In this document: positions 802 through 62,698 of the stretch, one piece after another
Layout: every line of letters starts with the position of its first letter
Numbering within the stretch: the stretch's first letter is position 1
Assembly (NCBI GenBank): GCA_032622095.1
Contig: CP136069.1
Location: 8,324,036 to 8,388,035 of the forward strand
Reading direction: 5' to 3'
DNA: 64,000 bases
From: Siphonodentalium dalli
Taxonomy: Eukaryota; Mollusca; Scaphopoda; Gadilida; Siphonodentaliidae
Position numbers and translations under genes: made by a program
Notes under the pieces: generated by a model
Database searches by the model: none
Told to the model about the DNA's origin: nothing
Seen by the model: the letters and a program-made list of their open reading frames with translations, nothing else

Positions 802-974
802 AAACAAATGCCTGAATGATAAGGTTGGCCGCGTGCAGGATCATTCATATCTGGAAGATCTTGCTGAGCTAATCTCTGCCAGCATATCGGACATGAGTTC
901 TCTGTCGTCGAAGCCAGATAAGTGTGCGTTACTGCAGGCGACCGTCAACCAAATACAACAAATAAAAAGCACTG
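802..974 (+). CDS. NCOA: NCOA exon E1: bHLH domain
   Basis: Acceptor tttgtcgttgcag, donor g|gtaagt. It opens with one base that finishes a codon and ends in phase 1. Residues 1-57 include the helix 1 motif YLEDLAELISASISD and helix 2 KPDKCALLQATVNQIQQIK, which match the family pattern (Y-E-LAELI and KPDKC-IL--TV-QI-QIK). The basic region must lie on an upstream exon outside the window. The donor side has been tandemly copied into the intron. Confidence 0.95.
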
Positions 975-3900
975 GTAAGTGTAGCGTTTATTACACATCC
1001 AGTCAAAAGCACTGGTAAGCCTACCTTTACTGCACATCCTTTAAATAAATACAGCAGATCAAAAGCACTCATAAATGTTGTCTTTATTACACATCTAGTC
1101 ACAAGCACTGGTAAGTGTAGCATTTATTACACACCAGTCAACATCTCGAGTGAGCCTACCATTACTGCAGGCAACATTCAAATAAATACAGCAGTTCAAA
1201 ATCGCTGGTAAATGTAGTAATTATTACACAACCAGCCAAAAGCGTTGAAGCTTGTATGTAAACAATGTGTCAAACGCTTGAGGCATGACAATATCTCATG
1301 ATAAGAGAGATATTCATGATAAGAGAGATATTTGGGGAGAGTTTAGATTGAGAATGTCAGGCGCTGTCGGTTATCAATGGTGACAGATGATGCATGTGAT
1401 CGTGCTGTCAGCGACCAATGGTGACAGATGATGCATGTGATCGTGCTGTCAGCGACCAATGGTGACAGATGATGCATGTGATCGTGCTGTCAGCGACCAA
1501 TGGTGACAGATGATGCATGTGATCGTGCTGTCAGCGACCAATGGTGACAGATGATGCATGTGATCGTGTCCTGTCCGTTACCAATAGTGACAGATGAAGC
1601 ATGTGATCGTGCTGTCAGCGACCAATGGTGAAGATGATGCATGTGATCGTGCTGTCAGCTACCAATTGTCACAGGATGCATGTGATCGTGCACTGTCAGT
1701 TACCCATGATCGCATGCTGTCAGCTACCAATTGTGACAGGATGCATCTGATCGCGCCCTGTCAGCTACAAATTGTCACAGGATGCATGTGATCGCTCTGT
1801 CAGCTACCAGTGGTGATAGATGATGCATGTGATCATGCACTCAGTCAGTTACCAATGGTGACAGATAATCGCACGCTGTCAGCGACCAATGGTGACAGGA
1901 TGCATGTGATTGCGTGCTGTCAGCTACCAATTGTCACAGGATGCATGTGATCGCTCTGTCAGCTGCCAGTTGTGACAGATGATCATGTGATCGCACGCTG
2001 TCAGCTACCAGTGGTGACAGATAATGCATATTTTCGTGTATCATGGATAGATACGATCCTTTGGTCTTGATCAATATACGAGATACAGGCCTTAAAATCC
2101 ATCCATTTGAATGAGAATCAAAGTTGATTCACAAGTTTTATGGTACGAGAATCAAAATCAAATCATGATATGCTACAAGTTGGGTGGGAGTGGTATACGG
2201 AGTATCACTTGTTCCATATTAGAGGTGATTCGAAGGGTATTCCCCAGAAACTTTTTGAAAATTCAATGCTATGAGAGCTACATGTACATGTAGTCTTATG
2301 ACTTCATTTTAACTTTTCTCAGAGATGAATTTGGCCAAATTCGCAACAGTAATATCTTACTTTAAGATGTTTTAAAAGTTACCCTCTCCCTGTATCTATG
2401 TATCTAAGTTACCCTCTCCCTGTATCTATGTATCTAAGTTACCCTCTCCCTGTATCTAAGTTACCCTCTCCCTGTATCTAAGGTACCCTCTCCCTGTATC
2501 TTATAAAAGTTACTCTCTCCCTGTATTTTATAAAAGTTACCCTCTCCCTGTATCTTATAAAAGTTACCCTCTCCCTGTATCTTCAGGGGCCTCGGTGGCT
2601 CAATCGGTTAGGGGTACAACTCCAAGCCGTTTCGCCCTCCAGCGCTGGCGATTAGGGTTCAAATCCACATGTTTCCATCGTGGACTTTGTAACTCGAAAT
2701 CGTTAACTGGTGGAGTTACCAGTTACTCGCCGATGGCCGGTGGTTTGCCGCACATGGTTGACGAGTTTATCAGCCATTGAAATCACTGTTAGATTAGTCG
2801 CAAGTGTGCGGATTTCCTCCACCACAAAAACTGGCAATGTCGTGATATGGCCTTAGTGGCTAAAGCGACAATAAACCCCAATCAATCAATCAACCCTGTA
2901 TCTTCAGTCAAATGACTTATTATCAAATGAGTTGATGTGAATGTGACAGTAATTCAGAATTGCAATATTTATTGTACATGTGAACCTTTCAATACTAAAA
3001 GATTTACTGTTAACCAAATAAAAGAAACATCCTGCAGTATAACAAATCAGAGATATGTTTGCGAGAATCGATAGGGAGACTTGCATATATAAGAGAATGC
3101 ATTGGCCTAACAATATTTACCTTGCCTTGTAAGCCAGAGCTTTCTCACTATGGGAGACTGTCATATATAAGAGAATGTATTGGCAAAGAAAGGATCTTTA
3201 ATGTTGCACTAGCTCCCGTCATCAACCTCATGGTTAAAAATCCCCCAATTTTTCTTTCTATTCTTTTGTCATGTTTTGTTCGAGGAGACAAATAACTTGA
3301 CTCCTAAATATTTCACAGTTACATGTATCATCATCTACAGATTCTTAATTTGTGACAAATACGGAGACTTCAGGTTGATATTTCCTCTCCTATTTTCTAA
3401 AAAGTTTCAAAACTTATTTTAGTGACACTTTGCCGGAGGAGAAAAATAAATTGAACGTAAATATTCCACAATCATCATCATCATTAAGTGTTTTTCTTTA
3501 TTTATGACAAATAAGCGGCCATAATAGGATATTTCACACCACTTTGCCAGAACAGAAAAATAACTCGACTCGTAAATATTTCACAATCGTCATCAGTATT
3601 TATGTTTCTGCTTGTGACAAATAAAGAGAGATCTGACTTGTGTAGCAGGCAAGCCTTGAAATAGTGTGTCCGTCATTTGCAGAATGAGGTCCCCGGAGGG
3701 TGAATTTAGTGATGTTACCCCGCATAGCGGGCTAGCATCACCAAATTCACCCTCTGGGGACCTCATTCTGCTTACACCTCAGCAGAATGAGGTTCCCAGA
3801 GGGTGAATTTGGTGATGCTAGCCCGCTATGCGGGGTAACATCACTAAATTCACCCTCTGGGGACCTCATTCTGCAAATGACAGACACACTGTTTCAAGGC

Positions 3901-12900: not shown

Positions 12901-15900
12901 ATATATTTCAGGCATTACTGTATATTTAATTTGTAAGTTGTTGTATTTTGAGACCAAAGCTTTAATATTTTCCAATGTTCAGTCAAAGGACAACTGAAAT
13001 CACTGCCGTCTCCAGCAAGCCATGGGGGGGCTCACACAACTGAAATCACTGCCGTCTCCAGCAAGCCATGGGGGGGGCTCACACAACTGAAATCACTGCC
13101 GTCTCCAGCAAGCCATGGGGGGGGCTCACACAACTGAAATCACTGCCGTCTCCAGCAAGCCATGGGGGGCTCACACAACTGAAAGCAAACCACTGCATGA
13201 TTTGTCCTCTGGATGAAGATTATTGAGTGTTATAATTAAAATCTCTTATTTTTTCCGCCCCGAGATCCAACCAGACTTGAATTCTATTATTCAAACCCCT
13301 TCTCTGAGGTCATGGATTTAACATAGTTAGTTTATTACAGCAGCTGGCCAGCTCGGGGGATTATGGTATTGTTTGGTGATTTACATTAACTAACACATGG
13401 TACCCTCACAATTGTTATATGAACCAACATTACTAATGTGGGAACATATGAGGATATTGACATGGGTTATAGTTCTGTGGGGGGGGGGGGGGGGTAGGGT
13501 AGGGGTAGGGGGTTTGTTTGGGTGATTTATATTAACTAACACATGGTACCCTCACAACATTACTAATGTGGGAACATATGAGGATATTGACACGGCCAAA
13601 TTTACATTAACCCTTTACCCAACAAAACGCCCAAATAAAGCTTCAACAGCCTAAAATATCTTCGGTCTGTCTCAATAACACCATACAAATATGGATATCA
13701 TTGGAACCGGTTCATTGACCACATTGTGATGGTTACAGTTATGCCCTGTGCCAATGCGTTCTCTTATATATGCGAGTCGACCATATATAAGAGAATGCAT
13801 TGGCCTAAAAAATTCTTTTTTTACCATTTTTTCTTACATTCTTTAACAATTTTATAATTTTTTCTTACATTTTTTAACAATTTTTATAATATTTTTCTAC
13901 ATTCTTTGACAATTTTATCATTTTTAATATGTGTTAAGCCAAACAGTTACGCATAATTCTGCTGTGGTTAAGGAGTCGATTATTTATGACAAATTACTGT
14001 TGTTTTGTGGACCACTTTGTGTGGAATGGCCCATTACTGTTAAACACTTTGATGTAACATTTTGTTAGATATCTTTTAACCCTTTACCCAACAGAACGGC
14101 CCTGTGCCAATGCATTCTCTTATATATGCGAGTCGACCATAGGTCGCCTCGCATATATAAGAGAATGCATTGGCTTAACACATATTAAAAATGATAAAAT
14201 TGTCAAAGAATGTGGAAAAATATTATAAAAATTGTTAAAAAATGTAAGAAAAAATTATAAAATTGTTAAAAAATGTAAGAAAAAATTATAAAATTGTTAA
14301 AGAATGTAAGAAAAAATGCATTCTCTTATATATGCGAGGCGACCTATGGTCGACTCGCATATATAAGAGAATGCATTGGCACAGGGCGTAACTGTAACCA
14401 TCACAATGTGGTCAATGAACCGGTTCCAATGATATCCATATTTGTATGGTGTTATTGAGACAGACCGAAGATATTTTAGGCTGTTGAAGCTTTATTTGGG
14501 CGTTTTTGGTCGGTTTGTTGGGTAAAGGGTTAATGAATCCAGCGCTTGATATTTACATCATTTTCATGCATCCTTCCTGTGATTACATAATATTTACAGG
14601 TTCTTCTTCATAATCTAAACACAGAATATCCATTTGTCATACTGCGAGCAATGCATCTCCCATGGTTTCCATCAAACTTTGTTGCACTCTTTCTATATAT
14701 TTATTCCCTCACTATCTTGGCTCTAAAGCTTGTTTTAACTCTTAAGATATGCCTCGCAATTTTTGAGTTGACTGGTTATGAGTAAATATATGGAGGTAAA
14801 ATAACTGGAACTGCAGTGAGGGATAGTTAACACTGTGGCTTTCCTGGTTAGTTGCTGGCCTCAAGATCATTTATGATCAAGCCTTGAAATAGGGTGTCTG
14901 TCATTTGCAGAATGGGGTCCCCAGAGGGTGAATTTAGTGATGCTACCCCGCATAGTGGACTAGCATCACCAAATTCACCCTCTGGGGACCTCATTCTGCT
15001 TACACCTCAGCAGAATGAGGTTCCCAGAGGGTTAATTTGGTGATGCTAGCCCGCTATGCGGGGTAGCATCACTAAATTCACCCTCTGGGGACCTCATTCT
15101 GCAAATGACAGACACCCTATTTCAAGGCTTGTTTATGATACTAGTACACAGGAAGTCCTGGAGTGAGACAAATGGTTTTCATCTCCTGAGCCAAGATTCT
15201 GCTCACCTGGTAAAGAGAAACTGAGAACTATGTCCCAAAAATCATTCAAAAGCGTTAACCCTTTGAGTGCCAGGGGCCGATCTTATCGGGCCGAATTTAC
15301 TGTCTGTAAAATTGCCCTAAAAAAATATTAAAAATGTTTTTTTTTTTAGATTTTTTTTTTGTGTTGAATTTTTTTTGGGTATGCTTAAGCATTCTGTAGC
15401 GAATTTAAAAACATACTGGATAAAACCTTAGGGCATGTTATAACTCAAAACTATCACCAAGTATTCATAGTAATAATTTTGATGCCCATGAAAAATGTAA
15501 GATTCCCTGGCACTAAACCTACAAAATAAGTCTGTTAAAGAATATAAGAAATAATCATTAAAATTGTAAAAAATTGTAAAAAATAATAACAAGTGATGAA
15601 AAAATGTTAGGCCAATGCATTTTCTTATATATGCGAGGCGACCTATGGTCGACTCACATTTATAAGAGAATGCATTGGCACAGGGTATATGGGTTGATAC
15701 AAAATTCGGACCTGGCACTCAAAGGATTAAAGGGGGACTGTACACTAAATCTGGCCATTTATGGGACCATTTCCTTTTATACTCAACAGAACAAATGAAT
15801 GAATATGAGCCATGGTTTAGGGCAAAATACACCCATGTGCTGAGCTATGAATGATGAAAACAACTTGGAAAAGCTCTCAGTGTAATGCCCTAAATAATTT

Positions 15901-33900: not shown

Positions 33901-36900
33901 ACTGGGTGGGAGAATCCATTTAGTATAGCAAGGGTTAATATAATAACAAATATTGGAATACTTGCATGACAAATTGCATAAAATTGCAGAACATTGTTAA
34001 TTGTACATCCAGTTATAGAGGTATCAGGGCTGAGAAATACAGTAATGCCCTAAATAATTGACTCCTTAACCACAGCAGAATTATGGGTCATTTTTCAGTA
34101 GGAAATATTGCTTGTTGCCATTCATCGGAAAGCTCTCAGTGAGAGCTTTCCAATGAATGGCAGCAAGCCATATTTCCGAATAAACCCTGAAAATTTATCC
34201 ATAATTCTGCTGTGGTTAAGGAGTTGATTATTTAGGGCATTAGTTCAATTGTATCATTTTCAAAATACAAAAGTAGTTCCATATAAACGCCCCCAATAGG
34301 AATGGCTTGGTGGTTAAACTATTATTACGTGCTCTGGCAATGAAACTGTTAACCCTTTGAATGCCAGGTCCGATTTTTGTATCAACCCATATACCCTGTG
34401 CCAATGCATTCTCTTATATATGCGAGTCGACCATAGGTCGCCTCGCATATATAAGAGAATGCATTGGCTTAACAATTTTTATTTATTTATTTATTTATTT
34501 TTTTTACAATTTTTTACAATTTTAATATATTTTATTATATTCTTTAACAGACTTATTGTGTAGGTTTAGGGCCGATAATATCGGCCTCTGGCAATGAAAC
34601 TGTTAAAGCTAATGTTGTCTCGTCACTTTATTTTGCAGGCATTAGATGGGTTCCTGTTCCTAGTGAAGATCCAAGGACTGGTGGTGTTTGTTTCTGAAAA
34701 TATCATAGACTATCTCAAGTATACCCCGGTAACTATGACAACGCTTTATATCTCTGCTAGATGCTGCATGAGGCACATAATAAAAACCCAGAAATAAATA
34801 AATAGGGCCCAAAAAAAACCAACTTTTTAAACTGTTTTTACCACAAATGCACATACATATAGATAATCATTAGTGTGCAATGCAAAACACATGGTTTCTA
34901 ACATATCCATGCATGAATTGACCATGAAGTGACAGCTGGACTGGCCCTCAAAAGGTGTGTGATGGGTTGTGGATTGATGGGCATGATTTTTGCGATGATA
35001 ATTTCCTGAGACTGGATCTCAGGCCTATTTTATGCCTAGTTTGGGACATGGAACATAAGAACACTATCAACAGACATGGTGGGGTGTAGCTACTGTTTCC
35101 AAAAACCAGGCACGCTAGGTTGGGTGTACATTTCCTGGCTACCTCCAGACAATGGGATCATAGGGATGTAGTTGTCACAATACAAGAATCGCTATAATGG
35201 TGGTATTATGGGTAAAATTTCATAAAACATTAACGACATCAATTTCGTACCGAGTAAATGAAGTAATATACTAGCCAAAAAGCAGTATGTGAATAACAAA
35301 TCACACACTCAAGCATAAAGAAAGTTTGATGCCATTTATATTATCTGTCTATCCAGGGGCGCCGGAAGAGGGGGGGGCAGAGGGGGCAGCTGACCCCCCT
35401 GCCCTTGACCAAGAGGCAGAAAATGCTTTTTGTGTGTTTAATCTCGTGTTTTTATAGCAAAATACCACCAATTTCACAAGGAATATTAATTTTTTGTCAA
35501 TTTTATCACAAAACGGCCATAAAAACCGACAAATACCATTAAAATAGGGATTTTTGCCACAATGAATTTATGGTTATTTTCCCGAGTTTGCGGAGAAAAT
35601 GCCCTTTTTGCGGAAAAGTGCCCTTTTTGTAGGCTCTGCCCCCCCCATGCCCTTGGATGCTTCCGGCGCCCCTGTGTCTATCACTTTTCATTTATATTGA
35701 TCAATATTTCATCATATTTTGAATGATTCATTTTGGAACTTATTTCAAATGGCTTTCATATATTATCTTACTGATTATCACTTTTCAGTTATTTTGATCA
35801 ATATTTCATCATATTTTGTGCCTTTTCAGGATGAAATAGTTGGTAAGAACATCTATAACATCATACATGTGGAAGACCATGCTGAATTCAGTAGAAGTTT
35901 GCTGCCTATGTCTGGTAAGTTTTCACAGAACGGCCCTGTGCCAATGTATTCTCTTATATATGCGAGTCGACCATAGGTCGCCTCGCATATATAAGAGAAT
36001 GCATTGGCTTAACACATTAAAAATTATAAAATTGGTAAAGAATGTGAGAAAAAATGGTAAAAAGTGTTAAAAAAAGATTTTTTTTAGGCCAATGCATTCT
36101 CTTATATATGCGAGGCGACCGATGGTCGACTCGCATATATAAGAGAATGCATTGGCACAGGGCATAACTGTAACTATCACAATGTGGTCAAGGAGCCGGT
36201 TCCAATGATATCCATATTTGTATGGTTCTATTGAGACAGACCGAACATATTTTAGGCTGTTGAAGCTTTATTTATGTAGAAGTTTGCTGCATAATGTCTG
36301 GTAAGTTTGCTATTCAGTCAGAGTTAACCCTACCCTATGAGCTGGTGTCTGTTTCATTGTGACACGGAATTTTATCACCATGTGCTTACGAGTATTGAGC
36401 GATGTCATCATATAATCTATAGTTTTGACAACGTTGTCACTTTGATACGGTCCATGACAGGTTAGAAAAACACTCCAGTGTATAACCTTTGATGCTATGA
36501 CTTTTACGACGATCATTGTGGTATGATACGTGGTGGTATGCAAGAGCAATTGTGCGCCTCAAAATCGAAGGACTGGGTGTTTAGAGAAGATGTGTTGATT
36601 TAACCCTTTACCCAACAGAAGGGCCCTGTGCCAATGCATAGGTCGCCTCGCATATATAAGAGAATGCATTGGCTTAACACATTAAAAATTATAAAATTGT
36701 TAAAGAATGTAAGAATTTTTTTTTTTAGGCCAATGCATTCTCTTATATATGCGAGGCAACCTATGGTCGACTCGCATATATAAGAGAATGCATTGGCACA
36801 GGGTATAACTGTAACCATCACAATGTGGTCAATGAGCCGGTTCCAATGATATCCATATTTGTATGGTGTTATTGAGACAGACCCAAGATAATTTAGGCTG

Positions 36901-39900
36901 TTGCAGCTTTATTTGGCCGGTTTTGGCCGTTTTGTTGGGCAAAGGGTTAAGAAATAAATACACTGCGCATCGGCGTGTTTAGTAGAATTTTACCACAAAG
37001 AAACTGATTGTGGGTCAAATTCTACTATACACGCCGATGCGCAATGTATTTATTTCTTTTGTAATTTGAATGTATGTATTGGTCGAAATTGTAATGACAT
37101 ACGTTCAACCTGCTTTATAATAGCCCAGTTTCTATCTCTGCATGATATAATTTTCCACCAAGCAGTTCTTCTATTAGAACTGTAACGTCAAACATGACGT
37201 CACTATTGAACGGCGACCCCTTTTCATTGCCTTTTTTGAAGAAAAAAATCCAACATTTTTTTGTGGTACAATTCATAATATCTAGTATTGTAACCACAAT
37301 TGGAATGCAGGATACTGACCAATCAGGACGAGCCTTGTATGTAGGTTTAGGCAAGGTCGTTTTACAATTATTATTGTTATGCTTTACTTTTCAGGAGGGT
37401 ACTCTAATGAACTCAGCACGAATAAGAACAGGCCGTTCCAATGTAGAATGCTAATAAAATCTCCAAGTAAGTAAAACCACAGTCTGTGTCACAAGACAGA
37501 GTTTAGTGTGCCTGTCATTTTCAGAATGAGGTCCCCAGAGGGTGAATTTAGTGACGCTATCACGCATAGCGGGCTAGCATCACTAAATTCATCCTCTGGG
37601 GACCTCATTCTGCTTAGGCCTTATCTAAGTTTCTTTACTATCAAAATTTTATAGAAACTTCTTCACATTGATTCTATTTTTTTTTTAGTTTCTCGATATC
37701 CCCAAATTGGCAGATGACACATTGCATAGCAAATGAGGCCATGCAGAATGAGGTCCCCGGAGGGTGGATTTGGTGATGCTAGCCCACTATGCAGGATAGC
37801 GTCACTAAATTCACCCTCTGGTGACGTCATTCAGCAAATGACAGGCACACTAAACTCAGACTTGCTGTGTGATCGGAGAGTAACCCAGATGGAAGCATGC
37901 ACTATGGACTGTCGTCCGCTCCTCTCTATATGGGGCTCTCTGGGCAATGAAAGAGTTTAACACTCCCATATGGAGCCTCACACAGACCCAAGCAGACGAC
38001 AGTCATCAGTGCATTGTTCTCTGTGTCTGGGGCTCCATAAAGGGTTAACTATGAAAACAATATTACTCTCAAATGATCAAGTCTTGAAATAGTGTGTCTG
38101 GTCATTTGCAGAATTGGTCCGCAGAGGGTGAATTTAGTGATGCTCTCCCGCACAGTGGGCTAGCATCACCAAATTCACCCTCTGGAGACATCATTCTGCT
38201 TAGGTCTCATCTTTTGGGAAGTATCTATACTATCAAATTAGCATTGTTTTTAGTTACGTTTTCCTTTCTGGGAAGTTTCTATATCCCCTAATTTGCAGAA
38301 GGTAAAATCCATAATCGAGGTGCCCAATGGGTGATCATCACCAACTTCAACTGGGGAACTTTAATCTGATGCTAGATCTACCATAGCAGTTGAGGGCCTT
38401 AGCAGAATGAGGTTCCCAGAGGGTGAATTTAGTGATGCTAACCTGCTATATGGGTAGCGTCACTAAATTCACCCTCTGGGGACCTCATTCTGCAAATGAC
38501 AGACACGCTATTTGCAGGCTTGCAGATGATTCATACCTTTTATTTCTCGATTTGCATTTATTTAGATGATGAAAATGACGAGAATAAACAACCAGCAGCT
38601 CGACACGAAACGATGCAGATATCTGCCGTGTTACAACCTTATCCTGTAGATAAGTTCCCCGAATACATAGATGACTCCTCACCACCCGGTAAGTTCCCTG
38701 AATAAACAACCAACAACTCGACACGAAACGATGCAGATATCTGCCGTGTTACAACCTTATCCTGTAGATAAGTTCCCCGAATACATAGATGACTCCTCAC
38801 CACCCGGCAAGTTCCCCGAATACATAGATGACTCCTCACCACCCGATAAGTTCCCCGAATACATAGATGATTCCTCACCACCCGATAAGTTCCTTGAATA
38901 CATAGATGACTCCTCACCACCCGGTAAGTTCCCCCGAATACATATATGACTCCTCACCACCCGATAAGTTCCCCGAATACATAGATGATTCCTCACCACC
39001 CGATAAGTTCCCCGAATACATAGATGACTCCTCACCACCCGGTAATTTCCCTGAATACATAGATGACCCCTCACCACCCGATAAGTTCCCCGAATACATA
39101 GATGACTCCTCACCACCCGGTAAGTTCCCCCGAATACATATATGACTCCTCACCACCCGATAAGTTCCCCGAATACATAGATGATTCCTCACCACCCGGT
39201 AAGTTCCCTGAATACATAGATGACCCCTCACCACCCGATAAGTTCCCCGAATACATAGATGATTCCTCACCACCCGATAATTTATCTTCTAGTCTAGCAT
39301 ATTTAAATGTGTTTAGTACATATTGCTAGACAAACACCATTATTATAATAATACTATTATTATGACCACGACCCCCGTAAAGGTTCAGGGCATATAGCTG
39401 AGGGCTCAATCTGTCAGTCCGTCCATCTATACTTCTGTTTGACATTCTGTCCATCCGTCCATCCATCCGAACATATCCCCTTATAACTCGGGTGTTAATT
39501 ATCAGATTTTGTTGTCCTTTGGTATGGTGTTAGTACATGTTGGGTTAAAGTATACCCTCATACTACGGGTTTCATCCATTAATTTTTAGAGTTTCGGCCC
39601 TTGTTTGATTTTAAAATTTGTAATTTTGTGTCCGTATGAGCATTTCAGCTTGTAACTCGTGTGTTAATTATCGTACTTTGTTGTCCTTTGGCATGGGGAT
39701 GGAACAGGTTGGGTTATAGGGTTTCATCCATACGGCCCTTGTTTGACTTGTTTATTCGATCTTATTTTGTAGATGGTCAAATGTGTTTAGTGTGTATTGC
39801 TCGACGACTGCCGTTATCAGAGAAAACCTCGCCTACGATGTTGGGGGTTGAGCAGTTCTCAACGAAGCAAGATCTCACTGGTAAAATCGTCTCCTGTGAC

Positions 39901-42900: not shown

Positions 42901-45900
42901 CTCCAAGAGTACGAACCTACTATACCTCAGCTACATAAATTTTGTCAGCGACATTTTCAAAAATCACTGTAAAAGTTATTTCCATGTTCTCTGTCTGACC
43001 TATACATGTACATGTATTATGTCTTAACCCTTTACCCAACAAAACGGCCAAAACCGGCCAAATAAAGCTTCAACAGCCTAAAATATCTTCGGTCTGTCTC
43101 AATAGAACCATACAAATATGGATATCATTGGAACCGGCTCCTTGACCACATTGTGATAGTTACAGTTATGCCCTGTGCCAATGCATTCTCTTATATATGC
43201 GAGTCGACCATAGGTTGCCTCTCATATATAAGAGAATGCATTGGCACAGGGCATAACTGTAACCATCACAATGTGGTCAATGAACCGGTTCCAATGATAT
43301 CCATATTTGTATGGTGTTATTGAGACAGACCAAAGATATTTTAGGCTGTTGAAGCTTTATTTGGCCGGTTTTGGCCGTTTTGTTGGGTAAAGGGTTAATG
43401 TAAATTTGGCCATGTCAATATCCATTTTTTCTTACATTCTTTAACAATTTTATAATTTTTAATGTGTTAAGCCAATGCATTCTCTTATATATGCGAGGCG
43501 ACCTATGGTCGACTCGCATATATAAGAGAATGCATTGGCACAGGGCCCTTCTGTTGGGTAAAGGGTTAAAAAATATGATGCCAGGTTTAGGGGCTAATTA
43601 TTTGATAAAGAAACTTATTATCTTAACATTCCTATAATTGAACGGGACTATTTTATTGCACTTTTATTTACAGTCGTACATAAGGGCAGTCATACTGCGA
43701 ATGTGTACAGGTTCAAGATGCAAGAGAATAGATACGTTTTCATCAGAACGGCCAGCACGCTGCAGAAGAAACCTGTGACAAATGAGCCAGAGTATATTTT
43801 CTCTCGGCACTCCATTATACGGTATATAATAGTATATATTCTCCCGGCACTCCATTATACGGTATATAATAGTATATATTCTCGGCACTCCAATATACGG
43901 TATATAATAGTATATATTCTCTCGGCACTCCATTATACAGTACTAATTCAGATCTTTTTCCATTGCTGTTCATTGTTCAGATGTTTTCAGAATATTAGCG
44001 ATGCTTATGTAGCAAATGTTGCCATTTTGAAAAATACTATGCAGGAGGGAGGTAACTCTATTAACCAGGGTACATTCAAGTGGAGGGATGTAACTCTATT
44101 AACCAGGGGTACATTCAAGTGGAGGGATGTAACTCTATTAACCAGGGGTACATTCAAGTGGAGGGAGGTAACTGTATTAACCAGGGGTACATTCAAGTGG
44201 AGGGATGTAACTCTATTAACCAGGGGTACATTCAAGTGGAGGGATGTAACTCTATTAACCAGGGGTACATTCAAGTGGAGGGATGTAACTCTATTAACCA
44301 GGGGTACATTCAAGTGGAGGGATGTAACTCTATTAACCAGGGGTACATTCAAGTGGAGGGAGGTAACTGTATTAACCAGGGGTACATTCAAGTTGAGGGA
44401 GGTAACTCTATTAACCAGGGGTACATTCAAGTTGAGGGAGACAACTCAATTAACCAGGGGTACATTCAAGTTGAGGGAGGTAACTCTATTAACTAGGGGT
44501 ACATTCAAGTGGAGGGAAGTAACTCTATTAACCAGGGGTACATTCAAGTGGAGGGAGGTAACTCTATGTACCGGGGGTACATTCAAGTGGAGGGAGGCAA
44601 CTCTATGTACCGGGGTACATTCAAGTAGAGGGAGGCAACTCTATGTACCGGGGTACATTCAAGTGGAGGGAGGCAACTCTATGTACCGGGGTACATTCAA
44701 GTGGAGGGAGGTAACTCTTTAACCAGGGGTACATTCAAGTGGAGGGAGGCAACTCTATGTACCAGGGGTATATCCAAGTGGAGGGAGTTAAGACATTTGG
44801 TTCGGGGGTGTATTAATGAAAGTATAATGTTAAATCAATCTAGCTTCATGAAAAGATGGTTATACAGGTGTTGCATGTGGTCGTAAAATAAATTTTGTCA
44901 TTTTAACTAGCCTTTCATTATGTCATCTGTTTTGGGTATTTTATATGGTGTGTGTGTTTCGGTAAATAATCACGATCAAGGCTCAAAATAATTTATAATT
45001 TTTATACTGACTCAAAATGACAGGTACCAAATGGATGGTGTTTCAAATTTTCAGATGTACTGTATGAGACAGTATTTAAATTTCCAATCTACTTATTATT
45101 CGTCAATGATGCACACATTTTATTGAGCGTCCAATCGCCACCTAGGAAAAACCCATGTTATTATTGTTTTCAAAAGTTCATAAACTTTACGTCAATTAAT
45201 AAATACACATACAATTCATAAATGACATAATTATAATCACTCTGAATTGATCTGACATTAAAAAAGAACTATTTTTACTTTCAATGTCCTATTTGGCCAG
45301 TAGTGGCTCCTTGGACAGAAGCAGATGTTAACAAATTTGCATTTGACAAAATATTCGACAGATATAGAAGTGTACTGGACATAAGCTATTTTTCGTCGGG
45401 ACAATGACCAGCCACTTATTTTGAGCTTTGATCCAGATCCTCACTGATTGTTTTGAGAAAGGAAGTACATTCACCTACAGTAATGCCCTAATTAATCGAC
45501 TCCTTAACCACAGCAGAATTATGGGTAACTTTTCAGGATTTAGTCGGAAATATGTCTTGTTGCCATTCATCGAAAAGCTCTCGACGAGAGCTTTCTGATG
45601 AATGGCAACAAGCCATATTTCCGACTAAATCCTGAAAAGTTACCCATAATATGCTGTGGTTAAGGAGTCGATTATTTAGAGCATTACTGTAGCTTATGTT
45701 GGAATTTGTAATAAAATCTCCATTTCTCGGATTTCAGTGTTATTATTAATGTGAGTTTGTGGGTAACAATTAGTAGCCTTTTACTGTAACACATAGATAT
45801 GTACTAGCTATTCATGAATTTTTGGGCACAACCAAATGGTTGATGAGTGGTTGAATTTTTATTGAAAGGGTTTTTAATGCTGCACCAGCGCAGCTCCAGT

Positions 45901-48900
45901 CATGGAAGGGATAAGTTAGATTTAACAATGTTAGATGTGTCGTGGGAGTTCGAGATAAAACCATCCATCTGGAATCACTTATAGTATTTTCACAACATTT
46001 ATGTTACATTTTTCTGCTGCACAACGGTCATTACGTCGAGAACTCGGCACACAAGGTAATGAAGTTATTTACCATTGAAGAGGTCAAAGGATCTGCTAGA
46101 CTCTTTCCTGGCTCATATGTGAAACACTACGACTCTATCGCTCTGTAACGTGCCCTCCCCTAAGAGTACGGACCACAGGGTCCTCGCTGGACCAAAATTT
46201 ACTTTTGCCAAATGAAAATATGTTTTGCCAAATTATTTAGGATTTGCCAAATGCTATCCCTGATAGTATCATTTTCTGCAACCCTAAGTCTCATATTTTG
46301 TCATATATCGATAGAAAAAGCAGTTAGTTAATAATTAATTATACTCGCATCTCGTCTGGTGTATCATAAAATAATAAGCCAATCACCGAACAAAACAATG
46401 GTAGAAGGGTTCCCTCATCCAGAAGGGCGCATCACAGGAGGATTAGCTATGTAAACACTACCACCAAACTAAATACTAGTAATCCCTCCAACCATCGGTA
46501 CTAATGCTATGAGATTAACTGTATCTTAATAGAGGTATTAACTTTTTCTAAACCTTATAAAACACAACTAATATAACTATGTTGTAAGAGTTTCCTGAAA
46601 TGAATGATATTGATTGACCAATATTTTTCAAATTTCTTGAGGAATTCAAAAGTGACTTGCCAAAACTTTTGCCAAATGAAAATATTTTTTGCCAAATGTG
46701 AATTATTTTTGCCATTGGCAAATTTGGCAGCGCGAACCCTGACGGACCATCACCATCTTAAAATAGATGATGTCATCGATCCAAATATAATGACAGAGAG
46801 TTAACAACAACACAAGGATACCCATTAAAACACAACACATTGCCCTGTGTGTTCTGCGAAAAAAGTAAACATATTAAAAATATCTCTTCGAAAATACCAA
46901 GTATGATATCAAAATAATATGTTTTGATAATTTATTACCGCTAGAGATTGGCAGAATCTAGTCAAACTTGGGTATTTTGACACAACACACTTATCACTTC
47001 AGTCAATCAGATTGCACTGTTCTATTTTAGTACCGTTCAGAATTCCGACTCGTGATCCAAGATGGCATAAGTCCAGAAGAAATGTATTTTAGTCTGATAT
47101 GATAAATAGCCTGGCAGGCCAAATAAAAAATACCATATTGTCCTGGGGTAGCTCAGAGTCGGAATACGTTTACTCTATGGGAGGTGTAGGAAGACGACCA
47201 GTTGGTCATACCACCTCCCTGTGATATATACCATATTTTATTGATTTTGTACACTTTATTGTTATGTTGGTTATATATTACTAAATAAATTATTATCTAT
47301 CTATCTATCCATATCGGACTATATTGACGATGGCCAAACCAGAGCGGTGGCAAGGTTTATAGTCCGAGAACCAGTCAAAGGATCTGCTTCAACTCGTCTT
47401 ATATATCTTTGTTTTTATGTGTAACCAATCAGGTAAGTGGGTGTCAGACCAGGTAACACGAGTTCCAGGGTAAGCAACACCAAACCTAGCACACCAGAAT
47501 GACAGAACAAAAGTCAAAGTGAAGCACTGGCAGGTAGACCATAAATGGCCTATTTGTTAGTCAACATAGGTTTTAGTAAGAAAGAAAAACGCCTCAAACA
47601 TATTCGTCATTTTACCCACATAATATTGGCAGAGCAAAAATGTAATGGATGTCAAGAACAAGAGGAGAGTGTCTGCAAAGTATATGAAAGAAAGGGGATA
47701 TATTAGGGTCAGGGTCCCAATCACATGCAGACACTGTGTTCCTCGTGTTCTTGGCATAAAATTTTGAGTCGGAGAGCAAAGTCACGGAGCGGCTGGAAAT
47801 ATTTTGAAAAGTAATTAAGAACGTACAGATCGAAAGAGGGTAATTAAAATCAAAGATACCTAAGAATTTGTAATTTAAGGAAAAAGGTAAAACTTTAAAA
47901 TTTTAGAAGACCAAAGAGGTAAAGTTTTTGAAAAGTCAAAAGAAAGATACAACCAATAGGATCTTCCTCAGTTGCAAGTCGCTAACCTGTGCCATATTAA
48001 GCATATGAACACAAAACTTTTCGGCCTTTACTCGAAGGATCTGCTTCAACTTGTCTTATATATCTTTCTTATCTTTTTTTCAGAGAATGTGATTCGGATA
48101 CTGAACTTAAAGGATCCGCTTCAACTAGTCTTAAAAAATCTATAATTGGACATTCAAACACGCGAAATATGATCGGGAACTCTCAGGCATCGAGTGGTGC
48201 GAATGCTTTCAACAGTGGCGTGTCTTCTCAGAACATGGGATTAAATTCAGACGGTTCGTTAAGTGATATTCTGTTGGGAGGGAAGGCTAATTCCTCTTGG
48301 GATTCACTTCTCGATAACGCAGGGATGAATAACGCGGCTGGATCGTCGTGGGGAAGCATCGGGCCGATAAACTTGCAACAAAATTCACAAGTTCAAGGTC
48401 AAAATCATTCTCAGAATATTGTGCCATGTAGTTCGAAACGGATGCGGCCACTAAGTGGTCCACAACAGACCCGTAACATTCCATTTGATAAATCAAAATC
48501 GGCCGGGAATTCACCGAGGATTGACGGCTTTCAGCTGCCAATGCAGCAGTCTGGATTAAGTAATAAGAAAGGAATGCCCAGTATGAGTGGTGTCCAGATC
48601 GCGCAGCAGATACGCAGTCCGTTCGAGTTCCAGCAATTGAGGTCTCTCTCACCATCATTGTCACAAGGTAATAATTTAACCCATTCTTGACTGAATGGAT
48701 TCTCCCACTCAGTTATAAAAGTATACATTGGAAGGGTCTATTAACCCTTTGAGTGCCAGGTCCGATTTTTATCAACCCATATACTCTGTGCCAATGCATT
48801 CTCTTATATATGCGAGTTGACCATAGGTCGCCTCGCATATATAAGAGAATGCATTGGCCTAACAATTTTTCATCATTTGTTATTATTTTGTACAATTTTT

Positions 48901-49423: not shown

Positions 49424-49455
<32 letters not shown>

Positions 49456-52400
49456 TATTGGAGGGGATTGTTCAGATAATAAGTTCAATAAACGCCCCAG
49501 GGGGTGAATTTAGTGACGCTATTCCGCATTGAAACATTGTTTTAGTTATCATTTTTCCTTCTGTTCAGTTTCTATATCCCCTAATTTGCAGAAGATAAAA
49601 TGCAAAACGAGGTGACTAATTGGTGAACATCAACTTCAACTGGGAAACTTCAATCTGATTCTAGGTCTCCCATAGCAGTTGAGGCCTCAGCAGAATGAGA
49701 CTCCCTGAAGGTAAATTTGGTGATGCTAGCCCGGCATAATTGATATCGTCACTAAGTTTACCCCCTGGGAACCTCATTCTGCAAATGACAGACATGCTAT
49801 TTCCAGGCTTTTTAACACTATGAAATGGATAGCAACATGTTATAGGAAATATTAAATTGTATAAGACTCCTTAACCACAGCAGAATTATGGGTAACTTTC
49901 AGGATTTAGTCAGAAATATGGCTTGTTGCCATTTATAGGAAAGCTCTTGGGGAGAGCTTTCCGATGAATGGCAACAAGCCATATTTCCGACAAAATCCTG
50001 AAAAGTTAACCATAATAACTCTGCTGTGGTTAAGGAGTCGTTTACTTAGGCCATTACTGTACATAATTCACTGGGGTTCATGCAGGGACCAGTCTAGAGG
50101 GCCAGGTGGGAAACATGCTCACTATTAAAGGGACATAAGGTAATCGCAGTGAATAAATTAGAAAAATCAAAATGGTTTGAAAATCCAATTACTCATAATA
50201 GCAACCACAAGGGTGTTTATACCTTAGGCAGGTGAATGATAGCAGCCACCAAGGGTGTTTATACCTTAGGCAGGTGAATGATAGCAGCCACCAAGGGTGT
50301 TTATACCTTAGGCAGGTGAATGATAGCAACCACCAAGGGTGTTTATACCTTAGGCAGGTGAATGATAGCAACCGCCAAGGGTGTTTATACCTTAGGCAGG
50401 TGAATGATAGAAACCACCAAGGGTGTTTATACCTTAGGCAGGTGAATGACATCATATATGTTTTTCTATATCCATCAGTGTTTTTTTTAGATCGCGGGTA
50501 TGGATTTTGGAGAAATTATGACGTGACTTCCGGTTAGCAACAGTGTGGGGATTGCAAAAAACGCGGAATTGGGAATGAAGCATCGCGATGAAAGTAAATA
50601 ATTCACAACTTAGAAGAATTCACATGTGATTTAGGTCTATTAATTTCAATTAGAGAAAATTCTTTGGTTAGCTTAATGAAAACGAAAAATGAAAGACATC
50701 ATGACACGGTTTCTGACGTCATTTTTAGCTCAACTTTACTTTGTAAAGTTTGAGCTATTGCCATGGCTTGGTATCCGTCGTGCGTGTGTGTGTGTGTGTG
50801 CGTGATTCGTCAACAATTTCCTTTAGCACTGGCTACAGTTCGTACCTTTGGTCCGATTATTATGATATTTGTCATGGATGTTGACATTGACATGTAGATG
50901 GGAACGAGTCATTTTGGGTCATTTGGCCGAAAAACATGGCCGCCAGCGGCCATTTTGGATTTCAAAATTCAATCCATTAGCACGGGCTACAGGCCGTACT
51001 GTTTGTCTTATTGTCATGAAATTTGTCATGGATGTTAATATTGACATGTAGATGGGAACGAGTAATTTTGGGGTCATTCGGTCGAAAAACATGGCCGCCG
51101 GCAGCCATCTTAGATTTTACTCTTTGTATGACTAAATTCTTTAGCACGGGCTACAGGTCGTACTTTTAGTCTGATCATCACAAAATTTGTCAAGAATGTT
51201 AATAATGACATGTAGATGGGAACGAGTCATTTTGGGGTCATTCGGCCAAAAAACATGGCCGCCAGCAGCCATCTTGGATTTTACTCTTTGTATGACTAAA
51301 TCCTTTAGCACGGGCTACAGGTCGTACCTTTAGTCTGATCATCATAAAATTTGTCACGGCTGTTGAAATTGGAATGTAGATGGGAACGGGTAATTTTGAG
51401 GTCATTCGGCCAAAAAACATGGTCGCCAGCAGCCATCTTGGATTTTACTCTTTGTATGACTAAATCCTTTAGCACGGGCTACAGGTCCTACTTTTAGTCT
51501 GATCATCATAAAATTTGTCAAGAATGTTACTAATGACATGTAGATGGGAACGAGTCATCTTGGGGTCATTCAGCCAAAAAACATGGCCGCCAGCAGCCAT
51601 CTTGGATTTTACTCTTTGTATGACTAAATTCTTTAGCATGGGCTACAGGTCGTACCTTTAGTCTGATCATCATAAAATTTGTCATGGCTGTTGAAATTGG
51701 AATGTAGATGGGAACGAGTCATTTTGGGGTCATTTGGACAAAAAACATGGCCGCCAGCGGCCATCTTGGATTTCAAAATTTAATCCATTAGCACGGGCCA
51801 CAGGTCGTACTGTTCGTCTGATCATCATGAAATTTGTCATGGATGATAATATTGACATGTAGATGGGAACGAGTAATTTTGGGGTCATTCGACCAAAAAA
51901 CATGGCCACCAGCAGCCATCTTGGATTTTACACTTTGTATGACTAAATTCTTTAGCACGGGCTGCAGGTCGTATCTTTTGTCTGATCATCATAAAATTTG
52001 TCATGGATGTTAACAATGACATGTAGATAGGAACGAGTAATTTTGGGGTCATTCGGCCAAAAAACATGGTCGCCAGCAGCCATCTTGGATTTTACTCTTT
52101 GTATGACTAAATCCTTTATCACGGGCTACAGGTTGTACCTTTATTCTGATCATCATAAAATTTGTCATGGCTGTTGAAATTGTAATGTAGATGGGAACGA
52201 GTCATTTTGGGGTCATTTGGACAAAAAACATGGCCGCCAGCGGCCATCTTGGATTTCAAAATTTAATCCATTAGCATGGGCCACAGGTTGTACTGTTCGT
52301 CTGATCATCATGAAATTTGTCATGGATGTTAATATTGACATGTAGAAGGGAACGAGTAATTTTGGGGTCATTTGGCCAAAAAACATGGCCGCCAGCAGCC

Positions 52401-55400
52401 ATCTTGGATTTTACTCTTTGTATGACTAAATTCTTTAGCATGGGCTACAGGTCATACCTTTAGTCTGATCGTCATTAAATTTGTCATGGATGTTAACGAT
52501 GATATGTAGATGGGAACGACTCATTTTGGGGTTGTTCAGCCGAAAACATGGCCACCAGCAGCCATCTTGGATTTTACTTTTCTCTTCATGTCTATAAACT
52601 AGTATTAGACATTCAACTTTCCACATTCCTAATCGCTCCATTGACTGTAATACATTAAATTATTCCCTTTCCAAGTTGAGCTACAGTGTCATTGACACTT
52701 TCATTTATTTGTGGGCCAGAATCCAGACAAGATTGCACAATCCACGACACATCTTGTCAAGTTGGCATGTCATCTCTGTCGCGATCACTACGTGATGTTA
52801 CATAAATTATTCTTAGTGCTATGTCGCCGATAAAAGGCATAATCATAATTATTCATTGTTCTTCCACTGTTGCAGCACTTGGCCATAGTAACTGGAACAG
52901 ACCACAAACAATCGGTGAGATCGGCGCCGTTACAAGCTCCGTCAGTGGTTCTAAAGGGGGTGCCGATTCGAGTAACAGAATCACGTCAACGTTACCAAAG
53001 CCTCCAAAAGGAATGAACAACTTTTCGTTCCCGGTTCCAAATGACTTACCCGGCGCGGATAAAAAATCTGCTCCAAAGGTCAGTCAATGGCTGGCTACAA
53101 ACGCAGCGTACGAACAGATGATAGTAGAAAAAAGGGGAAAACACTCCCAAAGTGATAAAATGAATTCTCCCATGGACCGTGTGCATCAGTCTCCTCAGTC
53201 GAGCATCTTATTAAGCCCGTCGGAGAAGCCGCAGAGTACCTCAAGTGAAGACGATTCCGTTTTCAAATCAGACTCTACGTCGAAGATGGACATCATTCCT
53301 ACCAGGAAGAAGTCGGATAACGCGATTTTGAAAAAGTTGTTGACGTCTGATGTTTCTGACGGGGAGGAAGATATGGACGATCGGGAAGCAGAAATGGATC
53401 GTTTCAGTACCGTGTCGTCTGCTAGTGAAATGGAGCGGAACGAAGCGGAACCAAAACGGCCCAATAACATTCTTCTTAAGGTAGGGATAACAGCACTATC
53501 AATTAAAGTGATGTGAAACACTCAGATAGGGTGATTAGATAATAATTAGATTCCTGAGGGCAGACAACAAGGTCACAGTGTTAGCATTCTACATGTATAC
53601 AGTAATGCTCTAATTAATCGACCTCTTAACCACAGCATAATTATGGGTAACTTTTCAGGATTTATTCGGAAATATGGCTTGTTGCCATTCATCGGAAAGC
53701 TCTCCCCGAGATCTTTCCGATGAATGGCAACAAGCCATATTTCCGACTAAATCCTTAAAAAGTTACCCATAATTCTGCTGTAGTTAAAGAGTCGATTACT
53801 TAGGGCATTACTGTACAAATGTATAGTAATCTCGCTCAAAGTAGTTATTTTTACAAATATATCGAAATTGACAACACGCAATGTTTATAAGGCCAAAAAA
53901 AAAAAGTGTTTTGGTTCTCGGGCAATTTTTTTTTCAAATCAATGAGGGAGGGAGGATTTTATTTTTATTTTTTATTTTTTTCTGTGCGTAGTAAGCATGG
54001 ACAAAGATACCTTCCTCTGTCTAGTAATAACCAGAAATGTAGAGGGAACTGTTATGCATATAAACTCATTTAGTCTTATATAAAAATGACATTGTACTGC
54101 CAGTGTATGACTGGGATTACCTAACATTATATAATGCCCCTGACATTAACTACTGTTATTGTTGTCTAAACACTGATACCTCCCCATTCTAATATGTGAT
54201 CCTGAATTTAGTCCTGTGCCTTTCAATTGTATAAAGTTACAATTAGTGTAAGTTGTTCACATTGACTAATTGTAAGAAGAGCATGAGGATCAGCTAATCA
54301 TTTTCTTAATTGTAGTCATCTACTTCATGTTGTAAGCCTGCAAGTCACTTTTTAACACATTACATGTTAGAGCCTAATGCACACTAATATTCAACACATA
54401 TCTACTATGGACATGTTGATTAAAAAAAAAAATTAAAAAAAACATTTGTTTTGTTTTTTTCAAAAAAATTTTGTCATAACATCAGGCATTGCAATAAAAA
54501 GGCCTAATGCGGCCCTTTTTATTCAATGCGGCGGGGCCTGAGAACCAAATCCTTTCTTTTTTTTGGCCTAATTGCTGTATATTTATTAAATGCAGTCACT
54601 CTATATGGCGAATTGGTTTTCGTTAGATTATTGCTGATTGTTGCATCCCAAATCAAGATGTACTGTATACACCTGTCAGTAAGCCCATCCCTGAGGATAA
54701 GCCCAGTCTATGTTTTTGCTCCTAAAAAATCATGGGATGTTCCTTGTAGATAAGTCCACCCCCATATTTTTAAATTAGATGGTTATTATACATGGATGTC
54801 TAGTTAACTCTGAATGAAGATGACAAAAATTCATGCACAAAAACTTCTCCCTGTCACAAAAATAGGGCGAGGTGGGCACTCAATAGGGCAAAGTGACTTC
54901 TCCCTGTCACAAAAATAGGGCGAAGTGGGCGCTCAATAGGGCGAAGTGACTTCTCCCTGTCACAAAAATAGGGCGAGGTGGGCACTCAATATGGCGAAGT
55001 GACTTCTCCCTGTAACAAAAATTGGGCGAGGTGGGCGCTCAATAGGGTGAAGTGACTTCTCCCTGATAGGGCGAGGTGGGCGCTCAATAGGGGGAAGTGA
55101 CTTCTGCCTGTCACAAAAATAATAGAACCGCTTATGAATACCAAAAAAAAAGCATAAACAATGCTTATGAGTACGAAAAAAATTGCTAAATGAAACAAAA
55201 TCTTGAATATTCTCACCCATTAAAAGTGCATAAGCTGGGTACAGATATTAACATGTTATACAAATGAATTTTCTTTCAAAGTTGTTCTGGCCTTTACAAA
55301 CTTTAACAAAGGAGTAATGAACTGACACATGGTAAGGTGTATGAGTTTTCATCTTCAGGTGTGATAATCCCAAAATCACAAGTCACTGTACACACATTAC

Positions 55401-58400
55401 GATGTATTCACAGTTGTCGGCAATCAACTCTCAGGTGTGAATCTGCTCCCAAATCGGATTAATATAGATGTCAATAGAATTATGGTATTTTATAAGACCC
55501 TGTCTATAGATAACGGGGTTCAATCACTGTTAGCAGTAAATTAGGATGAATATTTTCCCGATTTTCGTCGGTCAACTTCGGAAATTTCAGGGCGATTTAA
55601 ACTTCGCCCGACTGCAAAATTGGGGTGAAGTGAGCTAGAATAGGGAGACTTCTTCGCCCATGTCGCCCATGCCTGGTCCCTGATTAGATCAGCACTATCA
55701 ATGCAAACCTGAGATTTTGCATGTGGGGGTCCTCGAAGGTAAGCCCAGTCCCTCCCAAGTCCAAAAGGAACTATTTTGTCGATCAGGCTTAATGTTGTTC
55801 TGAAAAATTATTTTTTTGTATATTAGGTCTCGTACTGTTCTGACCATTAGATAGGAACTATTTTGTCGATCAGGCCTTATGCCGTTCTGAACATTAGTTA
55901 GGGATTATTTTGTCTATCAGGCCTCATGCTGCAGTGATGTATTCTTACAGAAACTTCTCAACGAGAAGGAGATGTTTACTAATAAAGATGGGAGAACGAC
56001 GACCGATCTACTGCAGCGTCTCTTACAAGATAAAGAAACTGATATGTGTACTACAGCTCCCGCAGTAAGTTCCTTTTAGAAATTATGACATACAGTAATG
56101 CCCTAATTAACCCATATGGTGCCCCTCACAGACAGGAGCAGACGACAGTCAGTAATAGATCCTTCTATCTGTGTGGGGCTCTCTATGGGAGTTAGCCATA
56201 TATAGTACAGATTCATAGGATGATGTACAGTAATGCTCTGATTAACCCATATGGTGCCCCTCACAGACAGGAGCAGACGACAGTCAGTAATAGATCCTTC
56301 TATATGTGTGGGGCTCTCTATGGGAGTTAGCCATATATAGTACAGATTCATAGGATGATGTACAGTAATACTCTGATTAACCCATATGGTGCCCCTCACA
56401 GACAGGAGCAGACGACAGTCAGTAATAGATCCTTCTATCTGTGTGGGGCTCTCTATGGGAGTTAGCCATATATAGTACAGATTCATAGGATGATGTACAG
56501 TAATGCTCTAATTAATCGACCTCTTAACCCTTTACCCAACAAACCGGCCAAAAACGGCCAAATAAAGCTGCAACAGCCTAAAATATCTTCGGTCTGTCTC
56601 AATAAAACCATACAAATATGGATATCATTGGAACCGGCTCCTTGACCACATTGTGATAGTTACAGTTATGCCCTGTGCCAATGCATTCTCTTATATATGC
56701 GAGTCGACCATAGGTCGCCTCGCATATATAAGAGAATGCATTGGCCTAAAAAAAAACTTTTTTTACCATTTTTTCTTACATTCTTTAACAATTTTTATAA
56801 TTTTTAATGTGTTAAGCCAATGCATTCTCTTATATATGCGAGGCGACCTATGGTCGACTCGCATATATAAGAGAATGCATTGGCACAGGGCCCTTCTGTT
56901 GAGTAAAGGGTTAACCAAAGCAGAATTATGGGTAACTTTTCAGGATTTAGTCGGAAATATGGCTTTCTGATGAATGGCAACAAGCCATATTTTCGACTAA
57001 ATCCTGAAAAGTTACCCATAATTCTGCTTTGGTTAAGAGGTCGATTAATTAGAGCATTACTGTACAAGGGTGCATCGTGTGCACCATAATGGAAACTATG
57101 AAACGCACTAGCAACCAGCCATCATTCTTAAAGATGCATAAACTGAATTAACGCTCGCAAGCAGGGACCAGCCGAGAGGGCGACATGGGCGACTTCTTCG
57201 CCCTAGCGCCGTCCGCTTCGCCTTATTTTTGCAGTCGGGCGAAGTTCAAGTCGCCCTGAAAATTCCAAAGTTGACTGACGAAAATCGGAAAAATTCCCCA
57301 AATAATTTATGATAATTTACAACTGTCAACAGTGATTGCACACAATACTCCACTATCAGGGTGTTGTAAAACAATTAACACCTGTATTGCTCCAATCTGG
57401 AAGCATGTTGACAACGGAGTCTGATTACTGGCAGCTGTGAAAACATCGTCGGGCCTCAAGTGTTAATCTGGTTGTTGTGATTTTTAGATTACCGTGATTA
57501 CCACACCTTACAATGAAGATTACAACTCACAGCTCTCACAATGTGTCAGTTCATCACTCCCTCTATGGAGTTTGGTTAAAGAAATTTTAAAACAAATTCA
57601 TTTGTGAAGCATATTAAATTTTCAAACGGGATTACTAATAGAGCGCAGTGAAAGTGTTCATGATTTCGTTTCGTTTCGGTTTGATAAATATTGTTGGCAT
57701 TTTTAAAAACCCGAAAAATATGAAATAAAATCTTGTCATTCTCCCACAATTACGATATAAAATGCTGCTATCCTCTCACAATTATGTTTGGTATTATTAA
57801 TAGTTATTAGGGTCATGAAGTGAACATAAAGACTCCATATTTCAACCATTGTTTCATAAGTTTAATTGACATATTACATCTCTCCTATTTTCGTTCTATA
57901 GCGACTCCTGTCGTAGTACTGTTCAATTTAAGTTTTGTAGACTCACTTCGCCCTATAGAACGGCCACTTCGCCTTATTTTGATAGTAGGGCGAAGTCATT
58001 TCGCCCTGAAAATATGGTCTAGGCTGGTCCCTGCTCGCAAGTCACTATTTCCTTGGCTTCGGGGGTAAAAAATATTTGATTCAATTTGAGGAACTAATCA
58101 AAGCTCAGAGTGATCAGATATCGATTTTTGGAATCTATTATTTTTCACCACCGATACTTTTTAGTGGCCCAGTAAAAAGTCGACGAGAAGAGAGTCTCGG
58201 ACCAAATTGCGGATGAAGATGGATTAAACTCTAAAACTAAGTGGCTTTATTGTGTCAAATATTTGACAAACTGGCAAAATTTCATTGAACAAAATGTTGA
58301 TAACTAACAAGATTTTTTGGGCAATTTTATACTACAGTTGACTGTGGTTAGCATTGTTTTTGGGCAATTAATCAATTATGATAACTGAAGCGGCATGTCA

Positions 58401-62698: not shown

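Follow-up and report, generated by a model that had tools for sequence, protein, structure and literature searches.

Exon-intron junctions of a p160/NCOA coactivator gene of Siphonodentalium dalli, including the splice site and adjoining exon text, are copied locally into the flanking introns, mostly as tandem arrays, and arrays of the same kind occupy junctions of other genes in this genome. Probably these are “mirage” minisatellites, i.e. local tandem duplications across exon edges which are tolerated since the exon-proximal copy stays intact. More tentatively, and with less than even confidence, we suggest that 5' splice sites are hotspots at which minisatellites are born or kept, young and near-identical arrays being several-fold more frequent at donors, but not at acceptors, than at matched intron edges, with about one donor in fifteen carrying a row of mostly intact decoys.

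Junction copies along the p160 gene

The window, i.e. the whole analysed stretch of 64,000 nucleotides (C9:8324036-8388035), belongs to a genome of 2,226,750,531 bases in 9 contigs and harbours a gene for a p160/NCOA nuclear-receptor coactivator. Pfam models recognise bHLH_NCOA (PF23172; E-value 2.8e-15, 57 bits at a cut-off of 27) in exon E1 and PAS_11 (PF14598; E-value 2.2e-6, 28 bits at a cut-off of 25) in E9. The exons were picked from splice signals and reading frame, and upon use of the exon-proximal splice sites 15 forward-strand exons join into a single stop-free frame of 1367 amino acids. Since this frame has neither start nor end here, the terminal exons of the gene appear to lie outside the window. 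A genome search with the 1367-aa protein at E <= 0.01 revealed no second p160 gene, the sole other match being a 26-residue piece of E6 on contig C2. The edges of E6, E7, E12, E13 and E14 used in the repeat tests deviate by 1-2 nt from the final exon model.

Splice site plus exon text is copied at the donors of E1, E4, E6 and E9 and at the acceptors of E12 and E15 (Table 1). Local alignment finds 6 of the 30 junctions of the gene spanned by copies, while the ungapped shift test, which misses E4, finds 5 of 30. A tandem unit containing the exon-intron boundary is present at the E1, E6 and E9 donors and at the E12 and E15 acceptors. E4 possesses no array; its copy is offset by about 385 bp and the intervening block resembles a dispersed repeat. 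The sequence-only reading had assigned junction copies to six exons, of which the E1, E4, E6 and E9 donors and the E15 acceptor stand. It had overlooked the acceptor of E12 and its AG-bearing upstream copies, and two of its candidates had to be withdrawn: at E10 the copied exon text excludes the splice site, and at the E4 acceptor the copy ends 11 nt before the junction. That donors and acceptors are both affected, four and two respectively, and that each junction possesses a separate local unit rather than sharing one mobile sequence had been read correctly. All six matches obtained in a DNA search with the E15 array fall inside the array itself and none elsewhere.

The E6 donor region is compound, its 39-bp array and its 118-bp duplication together extending over 38579-39280. 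Behind it, at 39305-39327, lies a possible degenerate copy of the E7 start, whose score of 15.5 is too weak for it to be counted. Read by eye, 19 nt of the real E15 exon are missing from the upstream 84-bp units. A further 39-bp array at 44044-44791, about 220 bp downstream of E9, shows a donor-like AGGTAAC in many units; it is wholly intronic and stops short of the E9 exon.

Table 1. Exons of the p160 gene with copied junctions, the copies themselves and the E10 region (window positions).
Feature	Position	Strand	Basis or remark
E1, bHLH_NCOA exon, donor within 40/137-bp repeat	802..974	+	Pfam; shift 136 repeat over 961-1001
E1 donor array, exon end plus GTAAGT repeated, 40/137-bp units	967..1230	+	4 copies found, GT kept in 3
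E4 exon, PAS region	35830..35914	+	exon model
Single 33-bp copy of E4 exon end plus donor	36276..36308	+	local alignment score 26.5
E6 exon	38566..38688	+	final 39 nt serve as first array unit
E6 118-bp tandem duplication, nearly whole exon plus donor	38579..38822	+	repeat scan
E6 39-bp array, exon end plus donor	38767..39280	+	GT lost in 9/13 decoys
E9 exon, PAS_11, donor inside array	43674..43821	+	PF14598
E9 donor array, 40-bp unit, 3.8 copies	43787..43942	+	repeat scan, shift test
E10 region, about 35 bp of exon text recurring about 75 bp upstream in intron	48029..48140	+	
E12 acceptor repeats, 47, 94 and 134 bp upstream	55768..55931	+	AG kept 3/3
E12 exon, acceptor copied upstream	55921..56064	+	local alignment, exon model
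E15 acceptor array, 84-bp unit, 8.3 copies	61929..62626	+	AG kept in 7/7 counted decoys
E15 exon	62597..62698	+	exon model

As to the origin of these structures, we propose that local tandem duplications of about 30-140 bp, presumably arising by slippage or short homology, extend across an exon edge by chance and would later expand into arrays. A duplication across a donor would retain an intact exon with its donor at the upstream end, one across an acceptor an intact acceptor with its exon at the downstream end. The coding sequence would remain unaltered provided that the exon-proximal copy is spliced, and the extra copies would be held in the intron as decoy splice sites. The exon-proximal donor may be favoured as the first to be transcribed and the exon-proximal acceptor, being nearest to the downstream donor, by exon definition, while wrongly spliced transcripts would be lost. 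Arrays would persist, as neutral sequence, wherever they are harmless.

Junctions compared with other intron positions

The alternative that has to be weighed most carefully, and to which we concede a substantial though minor share of probability, is chance: in a very repeat-prone genome random arrays would happen to fall on some junctions, the junctions themselves being irrelevant. Within the window, the comparison with random intron positions speaks for it, as 5 of 30 junctions are covered versus 19-31% of such positions, and with local alignment included 17-20% of the junctions versus 27-33%. In the shift test local direct repeats cover 27% of the intron positions of the window, compared to 5/30 junctions; in local alignment 31-33% of 600 random window positions score as high, compared to 6/30 junctions. 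Neither test reveals an excess of junctions over random intron positions in the window. The complexity filter initially applied, and used in this shift test, penalised long arrays and was later replaced for the sample counts. Since no exon can accommodate a long array, we consider the random-position null too strict. The p160 introns are array-rich, and the gene carries several junction arrays.

Other genes are represented by a sample of 160 kinesin, dynein and myosin exons from the same genome, located by means of Pfam models and taken with 500 bp of flank on each side. It comprises 81 of 88 kinesin, 72 of 77 dynein heavy chain and 7 of 75 myosin rows; 7 kinesin and 5 dynein rows were dropped as near-identical paralogues, judged by equal profile ranges and scores without alignment, and 68 myosin rows were left unused. 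A script scored 155 donors and 121 acceptors out of 320 junctions, while 44 (5 donors, 39 acceptors) lacked a splice site above the threshold and were not scored. In the course of this collection eleven similar myosin-head matches (profile about 376-435), each containing one in-frame TAG, were seen within about 1.3 Mb at C4:274.2-275.5 Mb; this cluster is a local gene expansion.

With units of up to 150 bp, 14 of the 276 scored junctions (10/155 donors, 4/121 acceptors) lie in tandem arrays, which contradicts the earlier view of a peculiarity of one gene. This cover of 5.1% is to be set against 7.2% of flank positions. Admitting shifts of up to 500 bp raises the number of spanned donors to 12 and that of spanned acceptors to 5 (17/276 or 6.2%, versus 10.7% of flank positions), a result again in line with chance, and local alignment of the first 120 exons gives 8/207 junctions versus 73/720 random flank positions. 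An excess of junctions over random flank positions is absent from the 160-exon sample, and the very comparison proposed by the sequence-only reading as its own check, junctions versus random intron windows, turns out negative in window and sample alike. At 20 arbitrary places in the genome, the cover amounts to 15% for shifts of up to 500 bp and 10% for those of up to 150 bp.

Examples of junction arrays are found at loci L030, L051, L057, L147, L166, L169, L091 and L161. At L051 (C2:63735358-63735573) a kinesin exon ending in NLVDLAG is followed by 14 decoy donors spaced 34 bp apart, all with intact GT, as counted within the fetched flank. Breakpoints vary among the donor matches, whose units measure 30-80 bp, the overlap of array and exon ranging from about 5 to 72 nt. 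What we take to be conserved motifs, read by eye in these matches, agrees with the inferred exon ends, with the exception of L049 whose donor had to be shifted by one unit. Arrays were recognised by eye at five further junctions (donors of L033 and L143, acceptors of L158, L162 and L049), which are left out of all counts but one, the comparison of 12/160 donors with 4/160 acceptors given below. The share of junctions in arrays is higher in the p160 gene (5/30) than in the sample (14/276; Fisher p 0.03), the window having been chosen for this pattern.

A junction tolerates only an array which slightly enters the exon, and for this reason an edge-matched null appears fairer to us, consisting of intron points at which the stretch 60-130 nt away on the “exon” side is clean. 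Both this null and an additional unit-length model were devised after the first results, and the answer depends on the null chosen. The edge-matched expectation amounts to a cover of 4.3-4.5% for shifts of up to 500 bp and of 2.4-2.9% for units of up to 150 bp. For the latter, at 84% identity, 10/155 donors are opposed to about 4 expected (ratio 2.4, bootstrap CI 1.1-4.2), and at 96% identity 10/155 to 1.5 expected (ratio 6.8, 3.1-12.9), both of which argue against chance. The corresponding acceptor counts are 4/121 (ratio 1.2, 0.3-2.6) and 1/121 (ratio 0.87, 0-3.3). The complexity filter changes these ratios little, and the unit-length model leads to similar expectations, the donor P ranging from 0.06 to 6e-7 over nine settings. 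With both edges pooled, eight settings give ratios of 1.8-2.0 at 84% and of 4.0-4.2 at 96% identity.

The positions at which arrays begin likewise speak against chance at high identity. Per 55-nt bin, 9 left edges fall on the exon end, 1 on the intron start and 1-5 further in at 92% identity, and 8, 2 and 0-3, respectively, at 96%. At 84%, by contrast, the exon bin is unremarkable (9, 1, then 3-8), being no higher than the fuller intron bins, as chance would have it. Other settings are equally compatible with chance: for shifts of up to 500 bp the pooled edge-matched ratio of 1.39 (0.80-2.14) is indistinguishable from 1, and for units of up to 300 bp at 84% identity 11 donors compare with 6.3 expected (P 0.06). 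The first 120 exons, for shifts of up to 500 bp, show no excess (6/115 donors and 3/92 acceptors versus 4.7%), and it was the last 40 exons which lifted the donor count to 12/155. In the window, the edge-matched expectation for 30 junctions is 1.0 at units of up to 150 bp (5 observed, P 0.004) and 1.7 at units of up to 300 bp (5 observed, P 0.03), again with the reservation that the window was chosen for the pattern.

Taken together, arrays seem to sit at intron starts above expectation. The donor excess (10/155 versus about 4 at 84% and about 1.5 at 96% identity) implies that pure neutrality is insufficient, while the acceptors fit the null; of the genome-wide junction bias which the sequence-only reading had offered as an alternative, the sample thus suggests the donor half only. 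This excess may reflect a mutational hotspot, a weaker tolerance of acceptors, or a better preservation of the edge copy that is anchored to the exon.

The first of these, according to which 5' splice sites are the preferred starting points of tandem duplication or array expansion, e.g. owing to transcription-linked breaks or to short homology within the donor motif, we regard as conceivable but rather unlikely. It would account for the donor-specific, filter-robust excess of near-identical arrays and for the lack of an excess at acceptors, where exon composition and constraint are the same; moreover, the GC content of near-identical arrays lying away from exons is not raised (35% versus 36% in the flanks). 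On the other hand, the evidence comprises 155 donors from three protein families of one genome, and the exon overlap shows no fixed breakpoint. The difference between donors and acceptors reaches p 0.026 at 96% identity but 0.28 at 84%, and p 0.07 (12/160 donors versus 4/160 acceptors) once the arrays seen by eye, 2 at donors and 3 at acceptors, are added. Furthermore, acceptors were scored less completely (121 versus 155 of 160), and arrays are present at two or more of those left unscored.

Decoy splice sites and the ectopic copy of the E6 array

Decoys were counted only if at least 70% alike, a test by which E4 yields none. From 14 donor cases (4 in the p160 gene, 10 in other genes) 65 decoy copies were aligned, in which 11 of 130 GT sites and 89 of 1430 other sites are changed. 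GT is intact in 54 of the 65 decoy donors; 9 of the 11 changes occur at E6 and one each at E1 and L049. Among 12 decoy acceptors from four cases, including three E12 copies scored by eye, AG is changed in none. Judged from their letters, most decoys thus look usable as splice sites. The decay of copies at the splice site, as put forward in the sequence-only reading, applies to E6 (9/13) and in part to E1 (1/4), but not to E9 (0/2), E12 (0/3) or E15 (0/7). Read-through into the first decoys at E1 and E6 leads to early stops, and so would the use of the nearest decoy acceptor of E15. Use of the E9 decoy at +78 would keep the frame and leave it open, with a gain of 26 residues, so that this decoy need be neither harmful nor silent.

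The end of E6 together with its 39-bp array recurs at C2:181491656-181493659 (locus L184) with 74-80% identity, as revealed by DNA search. This copy contains a part of E6, and its exon end is single where the 118-bp duplication doubles the p160 version. GGTAAG is kept in all 40 pattern-matched units of the C2 copy, compared to the frequent loss of GT at E6 itself (Table 1). This contrast hints at selection against decoys within the gene; alternatively, one variant may have been spread by chance via unit exchange. The copies of the two arrays are not independent of each other, and no p value is given. The E6 array probably predates the ectopic copy. The final 39 nt of E6 form an in-frame unit, which makes it possible that the E6 donor was displaced by one unit with a gain of 13 residues. 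A state preceding the array was not found, the C2 copy having the same first unit.

Repeats adjoining the C2 copy resemble the 164-bp repeats of p160 introns, where two arrays (23150-25558 and 50819-52578) share a very similar unit, and because of this similar text the 164-bp unit may represent a dispersed satellite-like family. The introns of the gene contain several other repeats. An array of 2.3 kb built from a 24-bp unit (26682-28965) has several open frames (774 aa on the forward, 761 aa on the reverse strand) and is probably non-coding. A palindromic element whose text resembles AGAATGAGGTCCCCAGAGGGTGAATTT recurs at 3679-3874, 14907-15102 and 19406-19584, and a second inverted-repeat family, ATTCTCTTATATATGCGAG, is seen in several introns.

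The state of the decoys bears on a further reading, in which selection keeps decoy donors as the extra sites aid junction recognition in long introns. Such a benefit would agree with the donor bias and with the retention of GT in most decoy donors, yet young arrays are expected to be highly identical anyway, and the loss of GT at E6, opposed to its complete retention in the non-genic C2 copy, points in the opposite direction; we consider this reading improbable. That the arrays are false expansions of the assembly is hardly credible, given that copies vary in sequence and unit length, that nested events are present (the 118-bp duplication of E6, the repeat block between the E4 copies) and that similar repeats in amphioxus genes are backed by RT-PCR data (PMC3087553).

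Relation to amphioxus mirages

Tolerated duplications across exon edges, the reading we prefer, have a precedent. In amphioxus, minisatellite-like tandem repeats across exon-intron boundaries, termed “mirages”, are described for the globin genes BflGb6 and BflGb9 and were reported earlier for Adh3 and other loci (PMC3087553). Their units measure 10-160 bp, they occur at 5' and 3' boundaries with AG/GT in many, though not all, copies, their length varies between haplotypes and somatically, regular splicing is undisturbed as judged by RT-PCR, and intron gain has been suggested to draw on them (PMC3087553). The present arrays resemble them in their boundary-spanning tandem units, in affecting both boundary types (4 donors and 2 acceptors in the p160 gene, 10 and 4 in the sample) and in that many, but not all, of the 65 donor and 12 acceptor decoys keep AG/GT. 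In contrast to the amphioxus cases, we are dealing with a genome of 2.23 Gb and with six junctions in one gene, known from DNA sequence alone; the sampled prevalence and the possible donor bias go beyond what is described for amphioxus. Cephalochordates are the sole lineage for which mirages are named in the passages found, and amphioxus genomes are far smaller than the present one. Searches of this genome with the profiles of arthropod cuticle (PF00379) and molluscan haemocyanin (PF14830), run with no positive control, gave no match. The sequence-only reading was thus mostly right in what it observed, too narrow in restricting it to one gene and mistaken in holding it to be undescribed.

Other known systems are similar in part. 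A review (PMC3443670) treats the gain of introns through tandem genomic duplication of exon segments that contain AGGT, a process which likewise doubles splice-like sites; there, however, a duplication inside an exon makes a new intron, whereas the present duplications affect junctions already in place and are not seen to create an intron. Tandem repeats that alter the structure of human genes from within (PMC2812944) also bear on exon-intron structure but, unlike the present arrays, belong to paralogs in human segmental duplications. A paper on amphioxus huntingtin mentions tandem repeats, with no mention of mirages in its accessible part (PMC2206037). Neither a genome-wide rate nor a donor bias was found in the open-licence literature at the level of titles and abstracts, which is weak evidence of absence. 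As new we regard the sampled prevalence, the possible donor bias and the ectopic copy of the E6 array.

In practical terms, gene predictors may set exon ends on the wrong copy of an array. The donor bias, if true, would link the birth of minisatellites with gene structure. If about 5% of junctions carry decoy arrays, as they do in the sample, this genome would hold a large raw stock for splice-site shifts and intron gain, and the spliceosome's choice among several identical sites in a row could be followed in very many natural experiments.
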